Assembly: GCF_002214365.1 (NCBI RefSeq)
Contig: NZ_CP014854.1
Span: forward strand, 1 to 64,000
Direction: 5' to 3'
DNA length: 64,000 bases
Origin: Thermococcus celer Vu 13 = JCM 8558
Lineage (GTDB): Archaea; Methanobacteriota_B; Thermococci; Thermococcales; Thermococcaceae
Shown: positions 879 through 49,034 of the stretch, piece after piece
Position numbering within the stretch: position 1 is the first letter of the stretch
Layout of the letters: each line of letters opens with the position of its first letter
Notes under the pieces: model-generated
Databases searched by the model: none
What the model saw: the letters and a program-made list of their open reading frames with translations, nothing else
Told to the model about the DNA's origin: nothing
Translations under genes and position numbers: made by a program

Positions 879-2045
879 AACCCCATACTCATTGCAATAA
901 CCGCTGGAAGTGCAACTCTCGGCACTTGGCTGTACTTAGGAAAGCCATTCGTTTTTGCCTTAGAGAGGATGGTAACTGTGATGGTAATTACATGTCCTCA
1001 CGCTTTAGGATTAGCAGTTCCTTTAGTGGTTTCAGTATCAACATCAATATCAGCGAGAAAGAGAATACTAATTAGGAATAGAGAAGCCTTTGAGAGGGCA
1101 AAAGATGTTCAGGTAGTTGTTTTTGACAAGACGGGAACTTTGACCGAAGGAAAGTTTGAGGTAACGGATATAATTCCATTGGATGAGCTTAGTGAGGAAA
1201 GAATCTTGAAATACGCGGCAGCGTTAGAAAGTTATTCGGAGCATCCAATCGCTCAAGGAATAGTGGAGAAGGTTAAGGAGAAGAAGATTGAGCTTTACGA
1301 TGTTAAGGACTTCAAAGCAATTCCCGGAAAAGGTGCTCAAGGCGTTATCAACGGCAGAGAAGTGCTTATTGTAAGTCCACAGTTCTTGAAGGAAAAGGGA
1401 CTCTGGAAAGAGGATGAGCGCGTTAACAATGTCTTGGAGCAAGGAAAGACGGTGGTGTTCTTAGTCATCGGTGGAAAGCTCGTCGGTGCTTTAGCTTTAG
1501 CCGATAAGATAAGGCCAGAATCAAGGGAAGCTGTAAAAAGACTTCACGAGATGGGGGTAAAGGCATACATGCTCACAGGAGACAACGCTAAAGTTGCAAA
1601 GTGGGTTGCTGAGGAGCTTGGTTTAGATGGCTTCTTCGCCGAGGTGCTACCCCATCAGAAGTCTGAAAAAGTGCAAGAGTTACAGAATAAGGGATTAATT
1701 GTTGCGATGGTCGGCGATGGAATAAACGACGCTCCAGCCCTGATACAGGCGGACGTTGGAATAGCCATCGGGGCGGGAACCGATGTTGCCATAGAAAGTG
1801 CTGACATAATTTTAGTCAAAAACGATCCAAGAGATGTCATAACGGGGATACACCTTGCGAGAGCTACATACAGGAAGATGGTGCAGAACCTGGCATGGGC
1901 AACGGGCTACAACACCTTCGCCATCCCGCTGGCGGCAGGTATTCTCTACAGGTATGGTATACTATTGAGTCCAGCAGCCGGTGCTTTGCTGATGAGTCTG
2001 AGCACGGTGATAGTTGCCATCAACGCGAGGTTTTTGAAGGCCTGA
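879..2045 (+). pseudogene. 5'-truncated CopB-type heavy-metal P-type ATPase
   Basis: C-terminal half of a P1B-type metal-transporting ATPase. The frame is clearly coding from about 879 (NPILIAITAGS...GTWLYLG), runs through the transmembrane metal-binding motif CPH, then the phosphorylation motif DKTGTLTE, the TGDN motif and GDGINDAP, and ends with two membrane segments. CPH rather than CPC is typical of the CopB subgroup, which exports copper ions and possibly silver. The N-terminal metal-binding region, the first membrane helices and most of the actuator domain are missing. The first in-frame ATG (969) lies inside the CPH helix, so it is not a natural start. IS6-type debris lies just upstream and is the likely cause of the truncation. 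Base composition is more AT-rich than in the core genome to the right. Confidence 0.85.
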
Positions 2046-2107: not shown

Positions 2108-3286
2108 CTACATTTCTTGAGAAAGAATAGATGAGAGATAAGTTTTCCAGGCTTTCAGAGGTATTAACCCCAAAGCCAGCAATAGAGAGCATATTATCCA
2201 TTTTACGTGGAGTTCCCCCAAGGACAAAAACAACGGGAGGATCACAATACCTACGGCAGAGTTTACCAGAGAAATCATAGATATTGCAGATGCCCGTATT
2301 TCTGATGGGACTATTGAGTTTCGGATATAACCCATGAAGACATAGTATAAACCAATAAGAACCTCAAGCACGTATAAAAGTGCCAGCACTATTATGTATG
2401 AGTCAATGTTCCACTTTAATACCAACGCTATGGCGATTGTAATGGCTGTTCCAAATATCAGGAAAAAACTCACTCCCCTGAGAGGCATCGAAACCTTTCT
2501 CGCAATGTAACTACCAAGGGACATGGAGAGCATCAAAGAAAAGTATACTGGACCCAGTATACTCTTAGGTGCTCCTAAGTTCTTTAGTGTTACAGGCCAC
2601 ACCACAAAGAATACTGAAAGCATTGAGGATACCAGCAGACTTAAAAACACAAGCATTGAAAAATCGGGGTTTTGGAAGAGTTTTAAGTTTTTCCTCAAAA
2701 GTGTCCTGCCTTCAGAATACCCTCTATTGTCTGGAAGGGAAAACAGTACTGCCGGGGAAAACACTCCCAAGAGACCAGATATAAACAAAGGATATTTTAG
2801 TCCTGCATATTTGACAAGGATGCCCGACAGTATTGAGGCAATAACACCTGCAATATTTTTTAATGTCCCCATGTCAGAAAATAGCCGCTTTACATCTTTT
2901 TTCCCAAATTCATCCACTGCCCATGCTTCCAAAGATCCGGAAATAAACGCCATTCCAGCCCCTCCGAGGAATGCTGAAAGTAGTACAATGTAAATCGGAA
3001 GTCTCTCAAATATTGTCAGCAATATCATACTCATCCCAACCAAAAACGTGCCCAGCATTGTAGATTTGAGTCTTCCGACTTTATCAGCAAATATTCCAGA
3101 TGGGTATTCAAACAGCAGGTTGGAGAGTCTATTTAATGAATATGAAAGGCCAATCCATGATAATGCGATATGGGCATTAAGATACAATACAAAATAAGGT
3201 CCCGGAAGATATATGGAAGCGGACAATGCAAAATAAAATAAGAGGAATATCAACCGTTCATTTGAAGCTTTTCTATGTGGGGACAT
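2108..3286 (-). CDS. MFS transporter, last gene of the peptide-modification cluster
   Basis: A 392-residue protein with about twelve predicted hydrophobic segments and the major facilitator signature between helices 2 and 3 (YPSGIFADKVGRLKS). It probably exports a small molecule or peptide, but the substrate cannot be read from the sequence. The chosen start (MSPHRKASNE) lies inside the last codons of the upstream radical SAM gene, a 37-bp overlap that implies translational coupling. A longer version with 22 extra residues is possible but would lie further inside the radical SAM frame. The position directly behind a radical SAM/SPASM enzyme and its candidate peptide suggests it exports or gives immunity to the modified product (inference). 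Confidence 0.8.
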   Translation of the reverse strand: MSPHRKASNERLIFLLFYFALSASIYLPGPYFVLYLNAHIALSWIGLSYSLNRLSNLLFEYPSGIFADKVGRLKSTMLGTFLVGMSMILLTIFERLPIYIVLLSAFLGGAGMAFISGSLEAWAVDEFGKKDVKRLFSDMGTLKNIAGVIASILSGILVKYAGLKYPLFISGLLGVFSPAVLFSLPDNRGYSEGRTLLRKNLKLFQNPDFSMLVFLSLLVSSMLSVFFVVWPVTLKNLGAPKSILGPVYFSLMLSMSLGSYIARKVSMPLRGVSFFLIFGTAITIAIALVLKWNIDSYIIVLALLYVLEVLIGLYYVFMGYIRNSIVPSEIRASAISMISLVNSAVGIVILPLFLSLGELHVKWIICSLLLALGLIPLKAWKTYLSSILSQEM

Positions 3287-4545
3287 AATGGATCCTCTCT
3301 TTCTATTGTACCGTAGAATGCATAGGAGTTGTAAGCGCATCCCCCTTTGCATATGTTAAAAAATTTGCATTTTGAACACTGCGTAGTTTCTAGAGACCCT
3401 ATTCTACTACTCCTGAACATGTTTAGCACATTTGAGTTAATCCAAATGTCATAAAAGTCTTGTTTAATAAGATTTCCTGATATGAACTCTTTATGTCCTA
3501 GAAACAGGGAACATGGATACACATTTCCAAAATTATCTATATGAAGTATTGTTCTCCCTGCAGCACAAACCCCCGCTAGATTTAATTCTCTCAGTGTACT
3601 AAACGAATCCGGATGTTTTTCCCAGGTAAATGTATATCCAAAGTCATCTAGCATTACTTTAAATGTGTCTGTGGAGTATTTATCTACAAGACGCTCTAGT
3701 TTGTGTTGTATCTCCTGAATCTCATGTTTGTCAAGGCTATATTTCTCAAAAACCTTTGAAGCCCTACCTGCAGGGGTAAATACCATAAAGTGTACTCCAT
3801 CTGCCCCCAGATCCCTGCTAAACTTTATTATTTCCTCTAACCTATCCTTGTTGTGTCTATGTATTACAGTTCCAATTATAAATGGAATTGTAGTTTTGTT
3901 AATCTTGTTAATGAACTTCACCGTTCGTTCCCACGCTCCATCAGTTCCCCTGAATTCATCATGAATTTCACTTTCTACATCATCAAGACTTATAAAGAGA
4001 CCACCAACATCCTTGACTTTGTCTTTGGATAGAAAATTAATCACATCTTTCCGGAATATAGTCCCATTAGTCAATATAGTGAAATTAAGTTTAGTTGAAG
4101 CATAAATATATTTAATTATTTTGTCTAGATACGGATGAAGAAAAGGTTCCCCTCCAGTAATAGCCAAATGGGTGACTCCTGATAGATCCAATTTTGATAC
4201 TATTCTCACAAGATCCATGAAGCTAATATGTTCCCCTTGATGTAGTGCACTCGCATAACAGTGCTGGCACGATAAGTTACAAACATTAGTTATGTCAACT
4301 GAGACATCATACGGAGCAGATAGACTAAAAATAGGCGTTTTATGTGGTGCCAGTGTTCTAATATTGATACTATCTCCTGAATTGGGGAGAACTTCAAAGA
4401 TTTCTTCCACCATGCTGTATGGATCCTCAAGAAATCCTGAAACTACATCCTCCACTGGAGATACTATCCTAACTTGAGCTCCTTCCCTTAAATGGACGTA
4501 TGCTCCGAATGGTTCTTCTCTAACAGTTATATTATATACCGCCAT
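3250..4545 (-). CDS. Radical SAM/SPASM peptide-modifying enzyme 1
   Basis: A 431-residue radical SAM enzyme. The [4Fe-4S] cluster that cleaves S-adenosylmethionine is bound by CNLSCQHC (Cys89, 93, 96), and GGEPF (131-135) is the SAM-binding motif. The C-terminal third is a full SPASM domain with seven cysteines (327, 345, 390, 393, 399, 403, 421) to hold two auxiliary clusters, the layout seen in enzymes that cross-link ribosomal peptides. Residues 1-80 form a separate N-terminal domain with some resemblance to PqqD-like peptide recognition domains, which is a guess. Upstream, after 65 bp, is a 26-codon peptide gene. Downstream the MFS gene overlaps its end. The family also contains non-peptide enzymes such as heme-synthesis proteins, but the tiny neighbour gene and exporters favour a RiPP role. 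Confidence 0.85.
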   Translation of the reverse strand: MAVYNITVREEPFGAYVHLREGAQVRIVSPVEDVVSGFLEDPYSMVEEIFEVLPNSGDSINIRTLAPHKTPIFSLSAPYDVSVDITNVCNLSCQHCYASALHQGEHISFMDLVRIVSKLDLSGVTHLAITGGEPFLHPYLDKIIKYIYASTKLNFTILTNGTIFRKDVINFLSKDKVKDVGGLFISLDDVESEIHDEFRGTDGAWERTVKFINKINKTTIPFIIGTVIHRHNKDRLEEIIKFSRDLGADGVHFMVFTPAGRASKVFEKYSLDKHEIQEIQHKLERLVDKYSTDTFKVMLDDFGYTFTWEKHPDSFSTLRELNLAGVCAAGRTILHIDNFGNVYPCSLFLGHKEFISGNLIKQDFYDIWINSNVLNMFRSSRIGSLETTQCSKCKFFNICKGGCAYNSYAFYGTIEREDPLCPHIEKLQMNG

Positions 4546-4610
4546 CTTAACACCTCCATTTCACCAATACTCTCCCAATAACCAAAAAATAAAATACCAA
4601 AAATAAAAAA

Positions 4611-4691
4611 TCAAAGCCCAACGGAGTCATGGCTGTTCCAGTGGTAGCATCCCGCATTCGAAAGTTTTCTTATCTTTAGTTTTTTCTTCAT
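4611..4691 (-). CDS. Candidate RiPP precursor peptide 1 (26 residues)
   Basis: An ATG with a GAGGT ribosome binding site 7 nt upstream opens a 26-codon frame that ends in TGA, 65 bp before the radical SAM/SPASM gene. The first ten residues are basic (MKKKLKIRKL), like a leader. The rest is S11-N-A-G-C15-Y-H-W-N-S-H-D22 followed by SVGL. The single Cys, Tyr, Trp, two His, Asn and Asp packed into eight residues are typical targets for radical SAM cross-links. A TATA box and a 35-nt element also found upstream of the second peptide gene precede it. No homologue is known to me, and assignment as a substrate is inference from size, position, translation signals and shared promoter. Confidence 0.7.
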   Translation of the reverse strand: MKKKLKIRKLSNAGCYHWNSHDSVGL

Positions 4692-4738
4692 TATATATAC
4701 CTCAAATAGAGTTTTTGCATATTTGAATAAGAAATTAG

Positions 4739-4784
4739 AATATTTAAGGTTTTCTTAAACTTATAGTTAGTAACTCAAAGTTAA
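4739..4784 (-). promoter_or_regulatory. Shared promoter element of peptide gene 1
   Basis: On the minus strand a 35-nt block (4784 to 4750) containing TAACTATAAGTTTA and ending in GAAAA is followed after 3 nt by the TATA-like octamer TAAATATT (4746-4739). The same block, 30 of 35 identical, with the same 3-nt gap and the same octamer, lies upstream of the second peptide gene at 9192..9237. TAACT occurs twice in the block, 14 nt apart. With transcription starting about 25 nt beyond the TATA box, the leader would be about 25 nt long. The element probably binds a common activator or repressor of both peptide genes. Confidence 0.7.
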
Positions 4785-4915
4785 GAAATTTCTAAAAAAG
4801 TAATCCTACAAGAGCTTTATTTTAAGAATTTAAATGATGTAAAATTATACAATTTTGAATAGTCATAGTTGGTAAGGATGCCTACAAAATAGCCGAGGGG
4901 ACAATTGGGATGGTA

Positions 4916-5080
4916 TCAAGTTAGTCCGTGCATCAGTTGTGAAGAGTCCCCTATATCAAAAACCAGATAACCCTCCTCGCGCAGCGCTTCCTTTTCCTCG
5001 AGGTGCTTTGCAATCAGGCCGTAGCGTTTTCCATTTCCGCCAGGGATAACGGTGGTCTCGTAGCATTCATAAACGATCAA
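4916..5080 (-). pseudogene. Unidentified 54-codon ORF or gene fragment
   Basis: Inside the AT-rich gap 4692-5201 a short stretch has much higher GC and reads as protein on the minus strand: TTG start, then IVYECYETTVIPGGNGKRYG and a charged helix-like stretch (LEEKEALREE). No clear ribosome binding site is seen. The composition resembles the core genome rather than the island, so this may be a fragment of a lost gene. On the plus strand just beside it (about 4861-4924) another protein-like scrap, IVGKDAYKIAEGTIG, ends in TAG. I do not recognise either. The rest of the gap is AT-rich with the promoter of peptide gene 1 and the inverted repeat at 5088..5120. Confidence 0.35.
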
Positions 5081-5087
5081 TGAATTT

Positions 5088-5120
5088 TAATACCGTGATA
5101 TTAAATATCTCACGTTATTA
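5088..5120. repeat. Imperfect 33-bp inverted repeat
   Basis: Arms TAATA-CGTGA and TCACG-TATTA flank an AT-rich centre with three mismatched pairs. It lies downstream of the ABC permease operon (ends at 5202) and upstream of the 54-codon ORF. It could be an operator, a weak transcription end, or the scar of an insertion. No function is shown. Confidence 0.4.
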
Positions 5121-5201
5121 AATTAAGCTCTTCTGCGAGGGATGCTGGTAGGTCAGGATGGAAGATTTTGATAATTGGATTTTTTAACCGATCCAAGCCC
5201 A

Positions 5202-6014
5202 TCAAAATCCCTGTATTCCTTTCCGTCTCATTCTAACCTCAAGTACTCTGTAGCTTAGAATCCCCATTCCAAAGTATCCAAGGGACATCATAAGGAGAAG
5301 CATCAGCTCGGCATCAAAACCGAGGATCGTTCTGGAACCCAAAATCACCCCCCTGAGCAGATCAATCCCCCACGTGAATGGAAACGCATAGGAGAGGATC
5401 AACAGCGGCGCCGGGAGTACGGTTACGGGAAAGTAAAGACCGCCCAGGAGCGGGGCTGCGTTTCCGAGTAGCGAGACTATTTCATCGCCTTCCCTGATCA
5501 CCAACGTCAAACCAAAAATTAAAAATGCAAAACCAAAAGAGGCTATCATTGAAATTAAAAATATAGATACTGCCAGAATACAAGTTTCTATGCTCAGGTG
5601 AAAGATATTTATTACCAACGCCACTATAATTAACGGCAAAGAATTTATTGTTGTTAAACTTATCGCCAAGAAGGACCAGCCGAGAATGTACTCCCACGGT
5701 CTAATCGGGGTAAGAAGGAGCTCTTCTAATTGTCCAATCCTCATGTGTTCTCTGAGTACGAAAATTGAAGCCCACACCGCTTCGATGTAGTTCCAGTAAG
5801 CGATTCCAAGGATGTAGTATTCAAAGAATTTTTTAGTTCCAACAATATGGGAAAAATCTAGAAAACCAATTTTATTCCCATACCACACGGCAATAGTAAC
5901 AGGAAGAATCCCCAGAACCGGCATTAACACGTTGCCATACCAGTCTATTCTATAACGTTTTGCAGTTAATAGAGATGCTTTTGCGAGATATAGAAACCTC
6001 ACCAAGCTTCCCAT
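5202..6014 (-). CDS. ABC-2 type transporter permease (second)
   Basis: A 270-residue membrane protein with about six hydrophobic segments and the conserved ABC-2 pattern after the third segment (EELLLTPIRPWEYILGWSFL). It starts inside the end of the preceding permease gene (16-bp overlap). Two different permeases plus one ATPase give a heterodimeric exporter, the arrangement used for export of peptides, antibiotics or polysaccharide precursors. Located behind a radical SAM/SPASM gene and its candidate peptide, it is the probable exporter or immunity pump of that product. Export direction and substrate are inferred from context. Confidence 0.85.
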   Translation of the reverse strand: MGSLVRFLYLAKASLLTAKRYRIDWYGNVLMPVLGILPVTIAVWYGNKIGFLDFSHIVGTKKFFEYYILGIAYWNYIEAVWASIFVLREHMRIGQLEELLLTPIRPWEYILGWSFLAISLTTINSLPLIIVALVINIFHLSIETCILAVSIFLISMIASFGFAFLIFGLTLVIREGDEIVSLLGNAAPLLGGLYFPVTVLPAPLLILSYAFPFTWGIDLLRGVILGSRTILGFDAELMLLLMMSLGYFGMGILSYRVLEVRMRRKGIQGF

Positions 6015-6766
6015 CCTCCCATACTCCTTAAATTATTTTCAGCCCTTTTGAGCAGTACTGTTCCTATAGAAAAGTACAGGAACGTTATGATTGTCAGGAT
6101 AGCTAAATCGGGGAGAACTTCAAAAAAAGTTCTTCCTAGCAGAATTTCTCTGCCGATTTTTATTGTATATGTTAGGGGAAGAATATAAGCTACAGTTCTC
6201 ATTAGTCTAGGATAAGCATTAATGTTAGCAGTGACACCAGAGGCTATCCCTAGGATTTCTTGAGTTATAAAGTTTATACCCGCGATCCTCCGGAATTGCA
6301 GCACCAAAGCCCCCCAGAGGATGGAAAACGCAAAGGTATACAGCCCTGACAGTATGTAAACGGCGAACATCTGAGGGGAGATAGCCTGCGATATTCCTAA
6401 AGCCCAGAATATTAGCATGGTAACGCCCGTTATGTACACACATTCCACAAGAATCCACATCCCCTTTCCAATCAGGAACTCCAGCAGTGAGATTGGAGTT
6501 AAAGCGATGCTTATCAGAGTCCCCTCTTCCCTCTCATCTTCGAACGCCTCCTGAACTCCAAAGAAGTACTGGTTGAGCCAGTACCACATGAGTGAGCCAA
6601 CCAAAACGGCTTCCCCAAAGTCGGGGGAGAACATTTTGGCCGTCAGAACCCAGGGAGCCAACATAAAGAATGGCGTTAGGGCAAAGTTAATCCACACCAC
6701 CCGATATCGAAGCTGGATTCTGCACTCTTTTTTAGCAATTGTGAGGATTCCACCCGCGTTAACCAT
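5999..6766 (-). CDS. ABC-2 type transporter permease (first)
   Basis: A 255-residue membrane protein with about six hydrophobic segments. The soluble helix after segment two (EDEREEGTLISIALTPISL) is the usual ABC-2 coupling region. The chosen ATG at 6766 has GGAGG seven nucleotides upstream and lies inside the final codons of the ATPase gene. It overlaps the second permease at its end. The three genes are therefore one tightly coupled operon: ATPase, permease, permease. Confidence 0.85.
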   Translation of the reverse strand: MVNAGGILTIAKKECRIQLRYRVVWINFALTPFFMLAPWVLTAKMFSPDFGEAVLVGSLMWYWLNQYFFGVQEAFEDEREEGTLISIALTPISLLEFLIGKGMWILVECVYITGVTMLIFWALGISQAISPQMFAVYILSGLYTFAFSILWGALVLQFRRIAGINFITQEILGIASGVTANINAYPRLMRTVAYILPLTYTIKIGREILLGRTFFEVLPDLAILTIITFLYFSIGTVLLKRAENNLRSMGGWEAW

Positions 6767-7598
6767 CAAGGATCCTCCTTAGGATGGAGTACAGGTCGTC
6801 CCTCTCAATTTGAACGTTCTCGGCTCCACTCTCTGTGAGCTCCATCAGTGTTTCATTGAGCTCCTCCCGGGATACTATTCTTTCGACCTCTTTTCCGTTA
6901 ATCGTTGCTTTGATTTTTATACTCTCATCCAATTTGAACTTCGAAAGTTTATCGTCAAGAACAATCCTCCCATCTTTCATAACTATCAGCCTAGCTTTTG
7001 GGGGTAGATCATGAAGGGCATGGCTAATTAAAACAATTGTTATCCCATTTTGATTTAATTCCTCAAGGAACTCTATAATCTTTAAATAGGACTTGGGATC
7101 AAGACCGTTAAGTATTTCATCAAGAAACAAGATTTTGGGGTTATGAATTGTGGCTTTAGCTAAAAGCAATTTCCGTCGCATGCCACTTGAATATTCCTCT
7201 ACAAGCTTATCTTTTACATGTACTAGATTAAGTTTCTCTAAGATTTCTAAGGCCTTTCTTTTCCCTTTTTTGACCCCATAAAGTCCGGCAAATATCTCTA
7301 AATTTTCTAGGCCTGTAAGCTTCCAATATAGGGTCCTTTCATTTGCTAACGCAACACCAATATACTTAGAAAGTTTTTTCCAGTCTTTAGATACATCAAA
7401 CCCTAAAACCCTAACTTTGCCTTCATCTGGGATTAACAGACCTGTCATTACTTTGAGAAGTGTTGTCTTACCCGAACCGTTTTCTCCGGCTATTACCACG
7501 AACTCGCCCTCGCGGATTCTGAGGTTTATGTCCCTTAGCACCCGGACATCTCCAAAAGACTTGGAGACGCCAATGATTTGGATTACTTCATTATTCAT
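6759..7598 (-). CDS. ABC transporter ATP-binding protein
   Basis: A 279-residue ATPase with Walker A GENGSGKT (38-45), a variant signature YSSGM (136-140), Walker B ILFLDE (156-161) and a switch histidine in ISHALHDL. It powers the two permeases that follow. The last 80 residues form a small C-terminal extension with acidic and basic patches, found in many ABC-2 exporters of the drug or bacteriocin type. GGTGA precedes the ATG by six nucleotides. The gene starts 79 bp after the second radical SAM gene and may be read from the same transcript, although this gap is AT-rich enough to contain a weak promoter. Confidence 0.9.
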   Translation of the reverse strand: MNNEVIQIIGVSKSFGDVRVLRDINLRIREGEFVVIAGENGSGKTTLLKVMTGLLIPDEGKVRVLGFDVSKDWKKLSKYIGVALANERTLYWKLTGLENLEIFAGLYGVKKGKRKALEILEKLNLVHVKDKLVEEYSSGMRRKLLLAKATIHNPKILFLDEILNGLDPKSYLKIIEFLEELNQNGITIVLISHALHDLPPKARLIVMKDGRIVLDDKLSKFKLDESIKIKATINGKEVERIVSREELNETLMELTESGAENVQIERDDLYSILRRILDG

Positions 7599-7677
7599 AG
7601 TAAGTCACCATACGTTGATAATTTCCTGTCCTTTTTGAAGTAATTGTAATTTTTATAGTTTTGTTATACCGTGGGGA

Positions 7678-8964
7678 CTACTTTTCTAAGGGTACCCAAA
7701 TATCGGGTTCTATTTCATCCACCTCTAATAACATCTCTGCAAATTTTGGTAGTGTTTTTTGGTGAAATATAGCCCAGCAGTCCTTCTTTTTACCCTCAAT
7801 CCACGCATTGTATACACATCCTCCCCCACACACCGGGAAATACTGACAGCTCCAGCAATAATTATCGCCCTTCCCTCCTTCAATAAACTGGGCATATTTT
7901 ACTAAAAATAACTCTGGGTTATGAAATACCTCTTCTTTTGATGCTACTTTGAAGTTATCCAATCCAATGGCTGATGTACACTTATAAATGGAACCATCTG
8001 GACCCACAAGTAGTTCGTTGTCTTTATTGTAGGTGCACACTGATTCCGAAAGGAAAGAGATTATGGGCACTTTCCTGTTTATAGCTTCCCTAATTGCATA
8101 AAGGAACATCGTTGCATATTGTTCGGGGTCTGGGATGTTACTTATCGTATGGGTACACGGGGAGGAGGGATGACTCTCCATCCCCACATTGAAAACAATT
8201 CGTCTGTCTTTAATGTGATCTCCAAATTTGTTTAATAGAATGTCTAGCATTTCCCCATAGTATTTCCAGTTTTGAGCATCTATGACGCTATGTATAATAA
8301 TACGTATATCTGTGTGTTCTAGCAATAATCTGATGTTTTCCATTATTTTGTTAAATGTTCCATTGCCCGTAGGAAAAATTCTGCGTTTGTCGTGAATCCT
8401 TGGGGGGCCATCTAATGTTATTTGTACGTATTCAAATGGATACTCCGTGATGATCTCTAAAGTTCTCTCAGGATCCTTGAATACTCCGTTTGTTATTGCA
8501 GAATAATGTCCAACAGGAATACTAAGATTTTTGCTCATAGATAACATTTCCTCTACATAGCTAGGATCGTAGAACGGCTCGCCACCAAATAGCAGCACAT
8601 CTATATATTCTTTTCTGAAAATTCTACGGAGTTGGTCCCATATTTGGACTCTCTCTTCTGGAGATAATGATAATTGTGGATTCAGCTTTCGAGTATCTTG
8701 TTGCATGCAATAAGTGCAAGATAAATTACAGTTAAGCGTCCATGCATCTATTATTATCAGTCTGTCCTCTGAGGGGTACTTTAGCTTATTATGGACATAT
8801 CTGCTCAATGCCTCCTCTCCGTCAACCAAAATGAAGGAGGCCTTTAGTTTTTGTGAAATGCTTTCGTTATCAGCATTATCAGACACAACCTCAATGGATC
8901 TGGTCAATATGTTGAATAAAATAGTCTGACCATTAGGAAGAGTTTTACGAACTACATACTTCAT
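7678..8964 (-). CDS. Radical SAM/SPASM peptide-modifying enzyme 2
   Basis: A 428-residue radical SAM enzyme with cluster motif CNLSCTYC (Cys79, 83, 86), GGEPF (127-131) and a SPASM domain with seven cysteines (310, 329, 370, 373, 379, 383, 396). The spacing CX2CX5CX3C is the same as in the enzyme at 3250..4545, but the two proteins are otherwise only distantly alike and have unrelated N-termini, so they are not a recent duplication. The start was placed at MKYVVRK because GGAGG lies nine nucleotides upstream. A 31-codon Cys-rich peptide gene ends 79 bp upstream. Enzymes of this type make thioether, ether or carbon-carbon cross-links in ribosomal peptides, and the exact chemistry cannot be told here. 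Confidence 0.87.
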   Translation of the reverse strand: MKYVVRKTLPNGQTILFNILTRSIEVVSDNADNESISQKLKASFILVDGEEALSRYVHNKLKYPSEDRLIIIDAWTLNCNLSCTYCMQQDTRKLNPQLSLSPEERVQIWDQLRRIFRKEYIDVLLFGGEPFYDPSYVEEMLSMSKNLSIPVGHYSAITNGVFKDPERTLEIITEYPFEYVQITLDGPPRIHDKRRIFPTGNGTFNKIMENIRLLLEHTDIRIIIHSVIDAQNWKYYGEMLDILLNKFGDHIKDRRIVFNVGMESHPSSPCTHTISNIPDPEQYATMFLYAIREAINRKVPIISFLSESVCTYNKDNELLVGPDGSIYKCTSAIGLDNFKVASKEEVFHNPELFLVKYAQFIEGGKGDNYCWSCQYFPVCGGGCVYNAWIEGKKKDCWAIFHQKTLPKFAEMLLEVDEIEPDIWVPLEK

Positions 8965-9043
8965 TGATGATCCCTCCTTTTCCATGAGTCTATGTCTCCA
9001 GAGTAGGATTTGGTATTAAAATAAAAATTAAAAAGACAATTAG

Positions 9044-9139
9044 CTAAAACAATAAGTTTTTGCATCTCTGGCTACGGTTGCAACATCCTCCTGCGGGGGT
9101 AGGACCAGATATTAGTCTTGACAGAATTGTCTTCACCAT
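9044..9139 (-). CDS. Candidate RiPP precursor peptide 2 (31 residues, Cys-rich)
   Basis: An ATG with a strong ribosome binding site (AGGAGGG, 7 nt spacing) opens a 31-codon frame ending in TAG, 79 bp before radical SAM/SPASM enzyme 2. Residues 1-10 (MVKTILSRLI) look like a short basic leader. Then come S11-G-P-T-P-A-G-G, a Cys pair at 19-20, N-R-S-Q-R, Cys26, and KNLLF at the end. The Cys pair and third Cys are candidate donors for thioether cross-links, as in sactipeptides. A TATA box and a 35-nt element shared with peptide gene 1 lie upstream. Both peptides carry Ala-Gly(-Gly)-Cys after a basic R..L-S segment. The substrate role is inference. The small size explains why gene callers would miss it. 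Confidence 0.75.
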   Translation of the reverse strand: MVKTILSRLISGPTPAGGCCNRSQRCKNLLF

Positions 9140-9191
9140 TGGTACTCCCTCCTAGCTTAAATATCATGCATAATTTAATAGGTTGCTATAT

Positions 9192-9237
9192 AATATTTAT
9201 TCTTTTCGTAAACTTATAGTTAATAATTTGAAGTTAA
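9192..9237 (-). promoter_or_regulatory. Shared promoter element of peptide gene 2
   Basis: The minus strand carries the same 35-nt block (9237 to 9203, with TAACTATAAGTTTA) and, after exactly 3 nt, the octamer TAAATATT (9199-9192) as at 4739..4784. Sequence on either side of the block and beyond the TATA box does not match, so the similarity is confined to the promoter. The predicted transcript start near 9170 gives a leader of about 30 nt with the ribosome binding site in it. Confidence 0.7.
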
Positions 9238-9238
9238 T

Positions 9239-9269
9239 AAGGAGAGAACAAACGCTTTGTTCTCTCCTT
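9239..9269. repeat. Perfect 14-bp inverted repeat with 3-nt loop
   Basis: Arms AAGGAGAGAACAAA and TTTGTTCTCTCCTT surround CGC. The right arm belongs to the IS6 transposase remnant (the same string occurs in copy 1 near 182-195). The left arm appears to be an inverted duplicate of it, and it abuts the regulatory block of peptide gene 2. It may act as a transcription barrier or be an IS-related scar. Confidence 0.6.
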
Positions 9270-9505
9270 AACAGTCCTGAACCAGCGCTCCGCCCCCAAA
9301 AGTCACGTGAACAAAATCCAGTCCCAGGGACTTAAAGGCAGACTTGTACCACTTTGCTCCATCAACCAGAAAACCGGTTGTCCCTCGCAGGATTTCAAAA
9401 CAACCAGAATGAAATCCACCAGTTTCTGGTTGTTGTAATCCAGACTGCGCCTTCAACATCAATCGCAGCCCAGAGGTATCTCTGCTTTCCGTTGATTTTT
9501 ATTAA
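9256..9505 (-). mobile_element. Decayed IS6-type transposase (copy 2)
   Basis: A short remnant clearly homologous at DNA level to the left-hand copy at 19..650: matching stretches include the sequence around GTCCTGAACCAGCGCTC, the LDFVHV and WYKSAF coding regions and the AIDVE region. Deletions and frameshifts have removed most of the gene, including both ends. It lies immediately beside the promoter block of peptide gene 2 and marks the right edge of the peptide-modification cluster. Confidence 0.75.
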
Positions 9506-48302: not shown

Positions 48303-49034
48303 ATGGATGAACCCGACATTTTCTACATCCTCGGGAACAGAGTGAGGCGCGACCTGCTGAGCCACCTCACCTGCACCGAGTGCTACTTCAGCTTCCTCAG
48401 CAGCAAGGTTAGCGTGTCCTCAACGGCCGTGGCGAAGCACCTTAAAATCATGGAGCGCGAGGGCATACTGAAGTCCTACGAGAGGGAGGGACCCTTCATC
48501 GGCCCCGCGAGGAAGTACTATAACATAGCCATCTCGAATACCTACGTCGCAACGGTAACGCCGAACATCTTCTGGTACAGGGGGCTCGATATCGGCGAGG
48601 GCCCCTCCGAAAAGCTTGAACGCGTGGAAATCGACCTGACACGGATACCGGTAGATGGCGGGAGTCTCCTCCAGATGGTGAATTCTTTCCTGGAGCTGAC
48701 GTCAGAGCTCGAGAAGATACTCGGGGCTCTTCAGGCGGTTGAAAGCCGGCGCGACAGGCTCATGAAAAGGATCAAGGAGCGCTACCTCGCGGAAATAGGC
48801 GACATGACCCAGCTGGCGATACTGCACTACCTCCTTCTCTACGGCGAGGCCACGATCGACGAGCTGAGCGACAGGCTTAACCTCAAGGAGAGGGAGGTTC
48901 TCGTGAAGGCCCAGGAGCTGGACAGGTTCGTACCGTTAACGATAAAAGAGGGGTTAATTAAAATCGACGGAGAAAAACTGAAACAAAAGCTTGGCGGTGT
49001 CAAATATGGCGGAGAAGATAAGGGTCGTGGTTAA
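48303..49034 (+). CDS. surR: Sulfur-responsive regulator SurR
   Basis: An ArsR-like regulator that senses sulfur. In the reduced state it activates hydrogenase genes and represses sulfur-reduction genes; with elemental sulfur its CxxC is oxidised and it lets go of DNA. The redox pair CTEC is at residues 24-27, inside an N-terminal winged helix (SSTAVAKHLKIMEREGIL). A coiled coil and a second helix-turn-helix-like part follow, 243 residues in all. It is divergent from pdo. The TATATAA promoter and GTTnnnAAC sites lie upstream. Its 3' end overlaps the ferredoxin gene. Confidence 0.93.
   Translation: MDEPDIFYILGNRVRRDLLSHLTCTECYFSFLSSKVSVSSTAVAKHLKIMEREGILKSYEREGPFIGPARKYYNIAISNTYVATVTPNIFWYRGLDIGEGPSEKLERVEIDLTRIPVDGGSLLQMVNSFLELTSELEKILGALQAVESRRDRLMKRIKERYLAEIGDMTQLAILHYLLLYGEATIDELSDRLNLKEREVLVKAQELDRFVPLTIKEGLIKIDGEKLKQKLGGVKYGGEDKGRG

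Follow-up and report, generated by a model that had tools for sequence, protein, structure and literature searches.

Do the two tiny peptide genes, two radical SAM/SPASM enzymes and two kinds of exporter near the start of this Thermococcus celer window (the whole stretch of DNA analysed, 64,000 nucleotides) form a single two-peptide RiPP system, or two systems that happen to lie side by side? An earlier note, made from the letters alone, described one biosynthetic cluster of seven minus-strand genes. Every feature that it named is present, but the count is eight. The locus is laid out as follows:

176–382, no strand assigned: degraded transposase-like remnant at the left border of the island, a direct copy of 9250–9448
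2108–3286, minus strand: predicted MFS exporter of module 1 (PF07690; 61% in G027), overlapping the 3' end of rSAM1
3250–4545, minus strand: rSAM1, radical SAM/SPASM peptide maturase (PF04055, PF13186; best NCBIfam NirJ2; 80% in G027)
4611–4691, minus strand: pep1, precursor peptide of module 1, MKKKLKIRKLSNAGCYHWNSHDSVGL, 26 aa (88% in G027, core unchanged)
5202–6014, minus strand: ABC-2 permease 2 of module 2 (PF01061)
5999–6766, minus strand: ABC-2 permease 1 of module 2 (PF12698, PF01061)
6759–7598, minus strand: DrrA-like ABC ATPase of module 2 (PF00005, TIGR01188)
7678–8964, minus strand: rSAM2, radical SAM/SPASM peptide maturase (PF04055; best NCBIfam CefB; 86% in G057)
9044–9139, minus strand: pep2, precursor peptide of module 2, MVKTILSRLISGPTPAGGCCNRSQRCKNLLF, 31 aa (ORF with ribosome binding site; G057 protein identical)
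9250–9448, no strand assigned: degraded transposase-like remnant at the right border of the island, a direct copy of 176–382

Module 1 thus comprises pep1, rSAM1 and the MFS gene, and module 2 comprises pep2, rSAM2 and the ABC genes. The most probable start of the MFS gene is 3286, not 3352. For rSAM2 the conserved start at 8964 was taken; the ATG at 8985 is not common to G057. The peptide-to-enzyme gaps measure 65 nt (pep1 to rSAM1) and 79 nt (pep2 to the conserved rSAM2 start), in agreement with the 65–79 bp given before. No leader peptidase gene was found in either module.

To judge the peptide genes, we compared them with their close intact relatives, which are few, one per module (G027 for module 1, G057 for module 2). 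Pep2 differs from its G057 copy in 10 codons, all at the third position and all synonymous (the synonymous share expected of random codon changes is 23–35%). Pep1 and its G027 copy differ by nine synonymous and three conservative changes in the leader, and the core NAGCYHWNSHDSVGL is unchanged. Because of this pattern of change, pep1 and pep2 are more than chance ORFs; judged by their codons, both are real genes under coding selection. The good ribosome binding site claimed for each peptide was found for pep2 (GGAGGGAGTACCA), but that of pep1 is modest here (GAGGT); the G027 copy has a perfect one (GGAGGTGA). Short ORFs directly upstream of the enzymes, with AT-rich spacers, might also be read as unmodified leader ORFs that regulate the enzyme genes as translation-coupled attenuators. 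We find this hardly credible, since conservation acts at the amino-acid level with only synonymous changes in pep2, pep2 is more conserved than rSAM2, and many related enzymes likewise follow small Cys-patterned peptides.

Searching other Thermococcales for the enzymes with short ORFs upstream, as had been suggested, recovered intact pairs in G027 (module 1) and G057 (module 2). The enzyme homologues therefore do not always lack the upstream ORF, and wherever the enzyme was intact the peptide frame was intact as well. Where the enzyme is broken, the peptide is broken too (G028), not found (G009, G088) or orphaned (G080). No convincing copy of pep1 or pep2 was detected away from its own enzyme locus in 94 genomes. 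These comparisons support the view that the peptide genes are tied to their enzymes and are gained and lost together with them. Some weak peptide look-alikes (E 0.02–1) were rejected: the surroundings of two of them (L127 and L128) hold no rSAM1 relative, and the rest were treated as chance matches.

The two modules occur separately in G027, G057, G080 and G009. In G080, the remains of module 2 adjoin the same P-type ATPase gene that adjoins module 2 here (in truncated form), with no module 1 between them. The reading as one system fails because the modules are apart in other Thermococcales and module 1 is missing from the equivalent site in G080. The independence of the two substrate-enzyme-exporter halves, which the earlier note had also proposed, fits these comparisons: the modules are separable and appear to be of the radical SAM/SPASM RiPP kind. 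One two-component bacteriocin, with jointly acting peptides and the nine-kilobase stretch as a single functional cluster, would account for modules that are adjacent, on the same strand and under a nearly identical promoter element. It is nevertheless very improbable in view of the relatives that carry each module without the other, the arrangement in G080, and the unrelated RiPP clusters that are preceded by the same promoter element. More probably, two independent cassettes came to adjoin each other. Each module has two intact copies among 94 genomes, a patchy distribution, and the locus is not isolated, as Thermococcales contain many radical-SAM RiPP-like clusters.

Both enzymes belong to the radical SAM superfamily (PF04055). 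The CxxxCxxC motif and seven C-terminal cysteines reported earlier are present in both and are all kept in each one's intact close homologue. PF13186 was matched by rSAM1; a Pfam SPASM match is absent in rSAM2, which has the Cys pattern only. No PqqD-like RiPP recognition element was matched at the N-terminus of either enzyme, and BLAST of the rSAM1 N-terminus against a PqqD-like N-terminus returned nothing; a relative at L123 has a sub-threshold match. Distant rSAM2 relatives follow Cys-patterned peptides, one of which is a recognised CefA; pep2 itself gave no CefA match. AlphaFold models built from the single sequences of rSAM1 and rSAM2 (mean pLDDT 39) were too poor to test the enzymes and were kept out of the fold searches. 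PADLOC viperin matches reflected generic radical SAM similarity. Scans of viral contigs with both enzyme pairs gave no relatives, and relatives in plasmid records were all <60% identical. Scans of genome contigs with the rSAM1 pair and the pep1 core pattern found nothing and missed the G027 copy too, so they are weak evidence of absence.

The most likely chemistry of rSAM2 is the formation of thioether links from the pep2 cysteines (GGCCNRSQRC), and rSAM1 may cross-link the invariant pep1 core through a Cys15 thioether or a Trp/His/Tyr cyclophane. The MFS protein would export the module 1 product, and the ABC-2 transporter of module 2 would serve both product export and protection of the producer. 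In G080 and G009, the ABC genes are intact though rSAM2 is lost, with dN/dS of 0.08–0.17, values that take in divergence from before the loss. Their survival after the loss of rSAM2 in these two genomes suggests a self-immunity function. Both products most likely act as antimicrobials.

We weighed two other roles for the products. In one, the modified peptides serve in signalling or bind metal, and the ABC transporter works in import or detoxification; metal could be bound by the Cys, His and Asp residues of the cores, and the P-type ATPase gene beside module 2 here and in G080 would fit. We consider this unlikely: transporters of the ABC-2 (DrrA-like) type typically act in export and immunity, and the ATPase gene, truncated here, was not observed next to the intact module in either G027 or G057. 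In the other, the peptides are precursors of a redox cofactor of the mycofactocin or PQQ type and are not secreted antimicrobials, with which the scores of rSAM1 near NirJ2, AhbD and MftC and control by a redox regulator (see below) would agree. Dedicated exporters, the patchy distribution, the lack of an oxidoreductase partner in the modules, the retention of ABC genes without the enzyme, and a subtilosin-like bacteriocin cluster with the same promoter element make it improbable. Among the module genes beside rSAM1 we found no separate PqqD/MftB chaperone or further cofactor genes.

How are two independent cassettes controlled? The promoters of pep1 and pep2 have in common an element that does not recur elsewhere in the 1.87-Mb genome (a 24/24 bp pattern; 52 nt at 81%). 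In both promoters it is consistent with the long SurR operator GTTn3AACn5GTT and lies upstream of TATA, the position of an activator site in descriptions of the long consensus (PMC12162507, PMC8595942). The relevant features are:

4758–4774, minus strand: putative SurR-type operator of pep1, GTTACTAACTATAAGTT, a perfect long site followed by the TATA-like TTAAATAT
4766–4782, plus strand: second long SurR-type site, GTTAGTAACTCAAAGTT, on the opposite strand and overlapping the first pep1 site
9211–9227, minus strand: putative SurR-type operator of pep2, ATTATTAACTATAAGTT, with one mismatch to GTTn3AACn5GTT, followed by the TATA-like ATAAATAT
48303–49034, plus strand: SurR, sulfur-responsive redox regulator (PF0095 structures 2qlz and 2quf, E=1e-86; CxxC kept)

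The operators are perfect long sites in the G027 copy of pep1 (GTTATCAACTTTTGGTT) and the G057 copy of pep2 (GTTCTTAACCATAAGTT), and the SurR gene has a long site in its own promoter. Of 10 radical-SAM RiPP families, which were found by enzyme homology, 7 have such a site upstream, vs. 3 of 68 control genes (p=5e-6); the other three families have no site. One of the matched groups (AACCAAAGGTTTAAGAGAA) lies before a conserved racemase-like gene; it was set aside as not RiPP-related. In T. piezophilus, SurR motifs of either kind were reported in ∼8% of promoters (PMC8595942). The element could instead belong to another regulator, as the shared stretch is longer, and its two copies more similar, than a SurR site would require, and the pep2 site here has ATT instead of the first GTT. 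We think this rather unlikely: the exact long consensus stands before pep1, its G027 copy, the pep2 of G057 and each of the three subtilosin-like peptides in Thermococcales, and genes for hydrogenase maturation and cobalt/nickel uptake are also found with this pattern. SurR is the likely common regulator of both modules. The earlier claim of one regulator gains a shared promoter element, but that regulator is probably the global SurR and not a cluster-specific one.

From an operator just upstream of TATA in both promoters, reduced SurR should activate transcription when elemental sulfur is absent; sulfur would oxidise SurR, which would then lose its grip on the promoters. We conclude that the locus probably holds two independent radical-SAM RiPP cassettes, presumably antimicrobial, that SurR switches on without sulfur. 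More tentatively, Thermococcales may make varied radical-SAM peptide antibiotics under this master switch between hydrogen and sulfur metabolism, on only without elemental sulfur, with pep1/rSAM1 as a new single-Cys RiPP class whose Tyr-His-Trp core bears an undescribed cross-link; we consider this combination less likely than not.

According to a 2025 survey, earlier work had validated no archaeal RiPPs by experiment other than two lanthipeptides from Haloarchaea; the survey treats the radical-SAM RiPPs of Archaea as predictions (PMC12144867). The present comparisons show coding selection on two precursor families and the separability of their modules, and they point to a testable control switch. 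A survey of antimicrobial peptides in archaea (Makarova et al., mBio 2019) may already include some of these loci. The findings suggest that Thermococcales link the making of modified peptides, probably antimicrobial ones, to their mode of respiration. If SurR control is true, antagonism among vent archaea would be linked to the chemistry of sulfur and hydrogen, and searches for the operator could reveal hidden RiPP clusters. Thermococcus genetic tools make this control directly testable; for T. barophilus a surR deletion is already available (PMC12162507). Peptides that function at such high temperatures would also be attractive as stable scaffolds.

Among known systems, module 2 most resembles the CefA/CefB, Clo7bot, geopeptide and PapB ranthipeptide types (NF038107, TIGR04334, TIGR04280, NF047865), in which a radical SAM/SPASM enzyme of the same clade lies behind a small Cys peptide with ABC genes nearby. 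However, rSAM2 scores far below all cut-offs (CefB 142 vs. 600 bits, Clo7bot 112 vs. 600, geopeptide 123 vs. 400), and pep2 is unlike ranthipeptide precursors: only 31 aa, with three cysteines as CC-N5-C, no Cys repeat and no acidic cross-link acceptor. The best-scoring families and structures of rSAM1 are NirJ/AhbD/MftC and AlbA/SkfB/SuiB-type maturases (SkfB 6efn, SuiB-type 5v1q, CteB-type 5wgg), but again every NCBIfam score is below cut-off (NirJ2 146 vs. 500 bits, MftC 142 vs. 265, AlbA 112 vs. 850, SkfB 97 vs. 300, PqqE 96 vs. 381). An MFS gene replaces the ABC genes, and pep1, with 26 aa, a single Cys and a Cys-Tyr-His-Trp core, matches no known precursor family. A sister cluster of the subtilosin A kind in the same genome (∼1151 kb) encodes a subtilosin-like peptide, unrelated in sequence to pep1 and pep2, together with an AlbA-like radical SAM enzyme and ABC genes, and has the same promoter site. 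The SurR target tables in two papers list energy-metabolism genes, among which we saw no RiPP cluster (PMC12162507, PMC8595942). The putative operators before both modules resemble those of the Thermococcales SurR regulon, with the long GTTn3AACn5GTT pattern upstream of TATA in the activator position (PMC12162507).

Two operon-like modules were found on the minus strand at 2108-9227:

9044-9139, minus strand, pep2, predicted RiPP precursor (module 2)
7678-8964, minus strand, rSAM2, radical SAM/SPASM enzyme (module 2)
6759-7598, minus strand, ABC ATPase (module 2)
5999-6766 and 5202-6014, minus strand, two ABC-2 permeases (module 2)
4611-4691, minus strand, pep1, predicted RiPP precursor (module 1)
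3250-4545, minus strand, rSAM1, radical SAM/SPASM enzyme (module 1)
2108-3286, minus strand, predicted MFS exporter (module 1)

The protein classes of both modules were confirmed by Pfam and NCBIfam. Both enzymes keep CxxxCxxC and seven more C-terminal cysteines, and both scored below every curated NCBIfam cut-off among the listed families (best for rSAM1, NirJ2, 146 bits vs. 500; best for rSAM2, CefB, 142 bits vs. 600). pep1 and pep2 gave no family match in either database. The ∼300 bp gap between the modules (4900-5200) holds ORF fragments (e.g., 4916-5080), which matched no Pfam family and may be what is left of a gene since lost.

Searching 94 Thermococcales genomes for further intact copies gave one of module 1, in G027 (rSAM1 80%, pep1 88%), and one of module 2, in G057 (rSAM2 86%, pep2 100%). 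The pep2 copies differ in ten codons, each by a synonymous third-position change. The pep1 copies differ by nine synonymous and three conservative changes; the latter all fall in the leader, and the core NAGCYHWNSHDSVGL is identical. The DNA flanking both frames is far less similar than the frames themselves. Outside its own enzyme locus, neither peptide gave a convincing match in the 94 genomes. In G028, rSAM1 carries a stop and a deletion, and pep1 is without start codon and Cys. Judged from these comparisons, pep1 and pep2 are real genes. The earlier note had read the anatomy of the locus (peptides, enzymes, exporters) well, and its two tiny peptide genes are borne out by codon-level conservation.

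Module 1 or its remains occurs without module 2 in G027 and G028, and module 2 or its remains without module 1 in G057, G080, and G009. In G080, the permease 2 gene stops ∼100 bp from the P-type ATPase gene found beyond module 1 in T. celer, so module 1 is absent at that site, by either insertion in T. celer or loss in G080. By this gene content, the modules are separable, among many such clusters in Thermococcales. The single two-peptide biosynthetic cluster proposed in the earlier note does not survive this separation and the missing module at the G080 site; the independent substrate-enzyme-exporter halves that it also suggested agree with it. The T. celer P-type ATPase gene (969-2045, plus strand) is truncated, with its N-terminal half missing; the same gene adjoins module 2 in G080. 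On each side of this region lies a degraded copy, in direct orientation, of a transposase-like sequence (176-382 and 9250-9448). We read these ORF fragments as transposase remnants, an identity for which Pfam gives no support.

The three ABC genes are fully open in both G080, where little of rSAM2 is left beyond the first 57 codons, and G009, where rSAM2 is wrecked. Their dN/dS against T. celer is 0.08-0.17, part of the divergence being older than the rSAM2 loss. Retention in these two genomes fits a role in self-immunity or resistance, which would point to an antimicrobial product. The MFS gene is broken together with rSAM1 in G028 and G088, and this joint decay fits a dedicated exporter of module 1.

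The pep1 and pep2 promoters share a 52-nt stretch (81% identical), whose 24-nt core occurs, at ≤3 mismatches, only at these two places in the 1.87 Mb genome. The core element matches the long SurR operator, GTTn3AACn5GTT (PMC12162507; PMC8595942). The site is perfect at pep1, G027 pep1, and G057 pep2, and has one mismatch at T. celer pep2. Each T. celer site sits just before a TATA-like sequence, and SurR is reported to activate from such a position (PMC12162507). Extended downstream, the operator pattern recovers hypF, hypA, hypD, and cbiM in the same genome, together with a hydrogenase-subunit-like gene (judged by eye) and a third radical SAM cluster. The SurR gene itself lies at 48303-49034 (match to the PF0095 structure 2qlz, E = 1e-86; CxxC kept), and its own promoter carries a long SurR-type site. 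The earlier note had placed both halves under one regulator; that idea gains a shared promoter element, and SurR is likely the master regulator of both modules.

A test set of RiPP clusters was chosen by enzyme homology, not by motif, and a site was counted when the long pattern occurred with ≤1 mismatch within 160 nt upstream of the start. Of the RiPP peptide genes, 12 of 23 had a site, and among the window's remaining ORFs, 3 of 68 did (p = 1e-6). The twelve sites begin 67-97 nt upstream of the peptide start codon. By family (our own grouping, positive if any member has a site), the count was 7/10 vs. the same 3/68 (p = 5e-6), and 5/8 with pep1 and pep2 left out (p = 1.5e-4). A motif-first scan of the 94 genomes led to many diverse radical SAM/peptide loci, with ∼75 matches vs. 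about a dozen for a reversed control pattern. At L173 (G080:C1:229458), a SurR-type site is followed by a 35-aa peptide (MEEFDVKSAITETLNDATLLTCCLQVWAFISTDSD) and a gene unlike radical SAM, possibly another RiPP type under the same regulator. Radical SAM clusters and free cysteine thiols on precursors would require reducing conditions free of reactive sulfur; reduced SurR would be active under those same conditions, which may explain sulfur control.

The third cluster, outside the window (G000:C1 ∼1151087-1154500; L217 4588-8020), resembles a subtilosin A RiPP cluster, here carried by a hyperthermophilic archaeon. Its 45-aa peptide matches subtilosin A (PDB 1pxq, E = 6.5e-12), the best family of its radical SAM enzyme is AlbA, and it also encodes a small membrane protein, an ABC ATPase, and an ABC permease behind a perfect long SurR-type site. 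Relatives occur in G021 and G024, and the perfect site is present at 3/3 subtilosin-like peptides found in Thermococcales. In other Thermococcales, Cys-rich precursors, one of them passing the CefA cut-off, adjoin CefB/Clo7bot-clade enzymes (L061 2567-2782, L063 5004-5165, L043 931-1155, L048 940-1161, and L052 966-1178). More unnamed small-peptide families precede radical SAM genes at L162, L167, L165, L171, L172, L174, L166, L177, L114, L115, and L116; the types include MGWLCYAACAAGCVGGCGAVCYITG..., peptides with an early Y[IV]PP, and others that contain Trp. Thermococcales seem to carry many RiPP-like clusters that are undescribed.

In the open-access collection searched, which is incomplete in coverage, no publication was found to describe radical SAM RiPPs from Thermococcales. 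Compared with the earlier note, the present analysis revises the architecture to two separable modules and adds SurR as the likely master regulator. With one Cys and an aromatic/His core, pep1 may carry one thioether or an aromatic cyclophane, as the known families would suggest. For pep2, Cys-derived thioethers are the best guess, since the peptides behind distant rSAM2 relatives are Cys-patterned and one of them is a recognized CefA.
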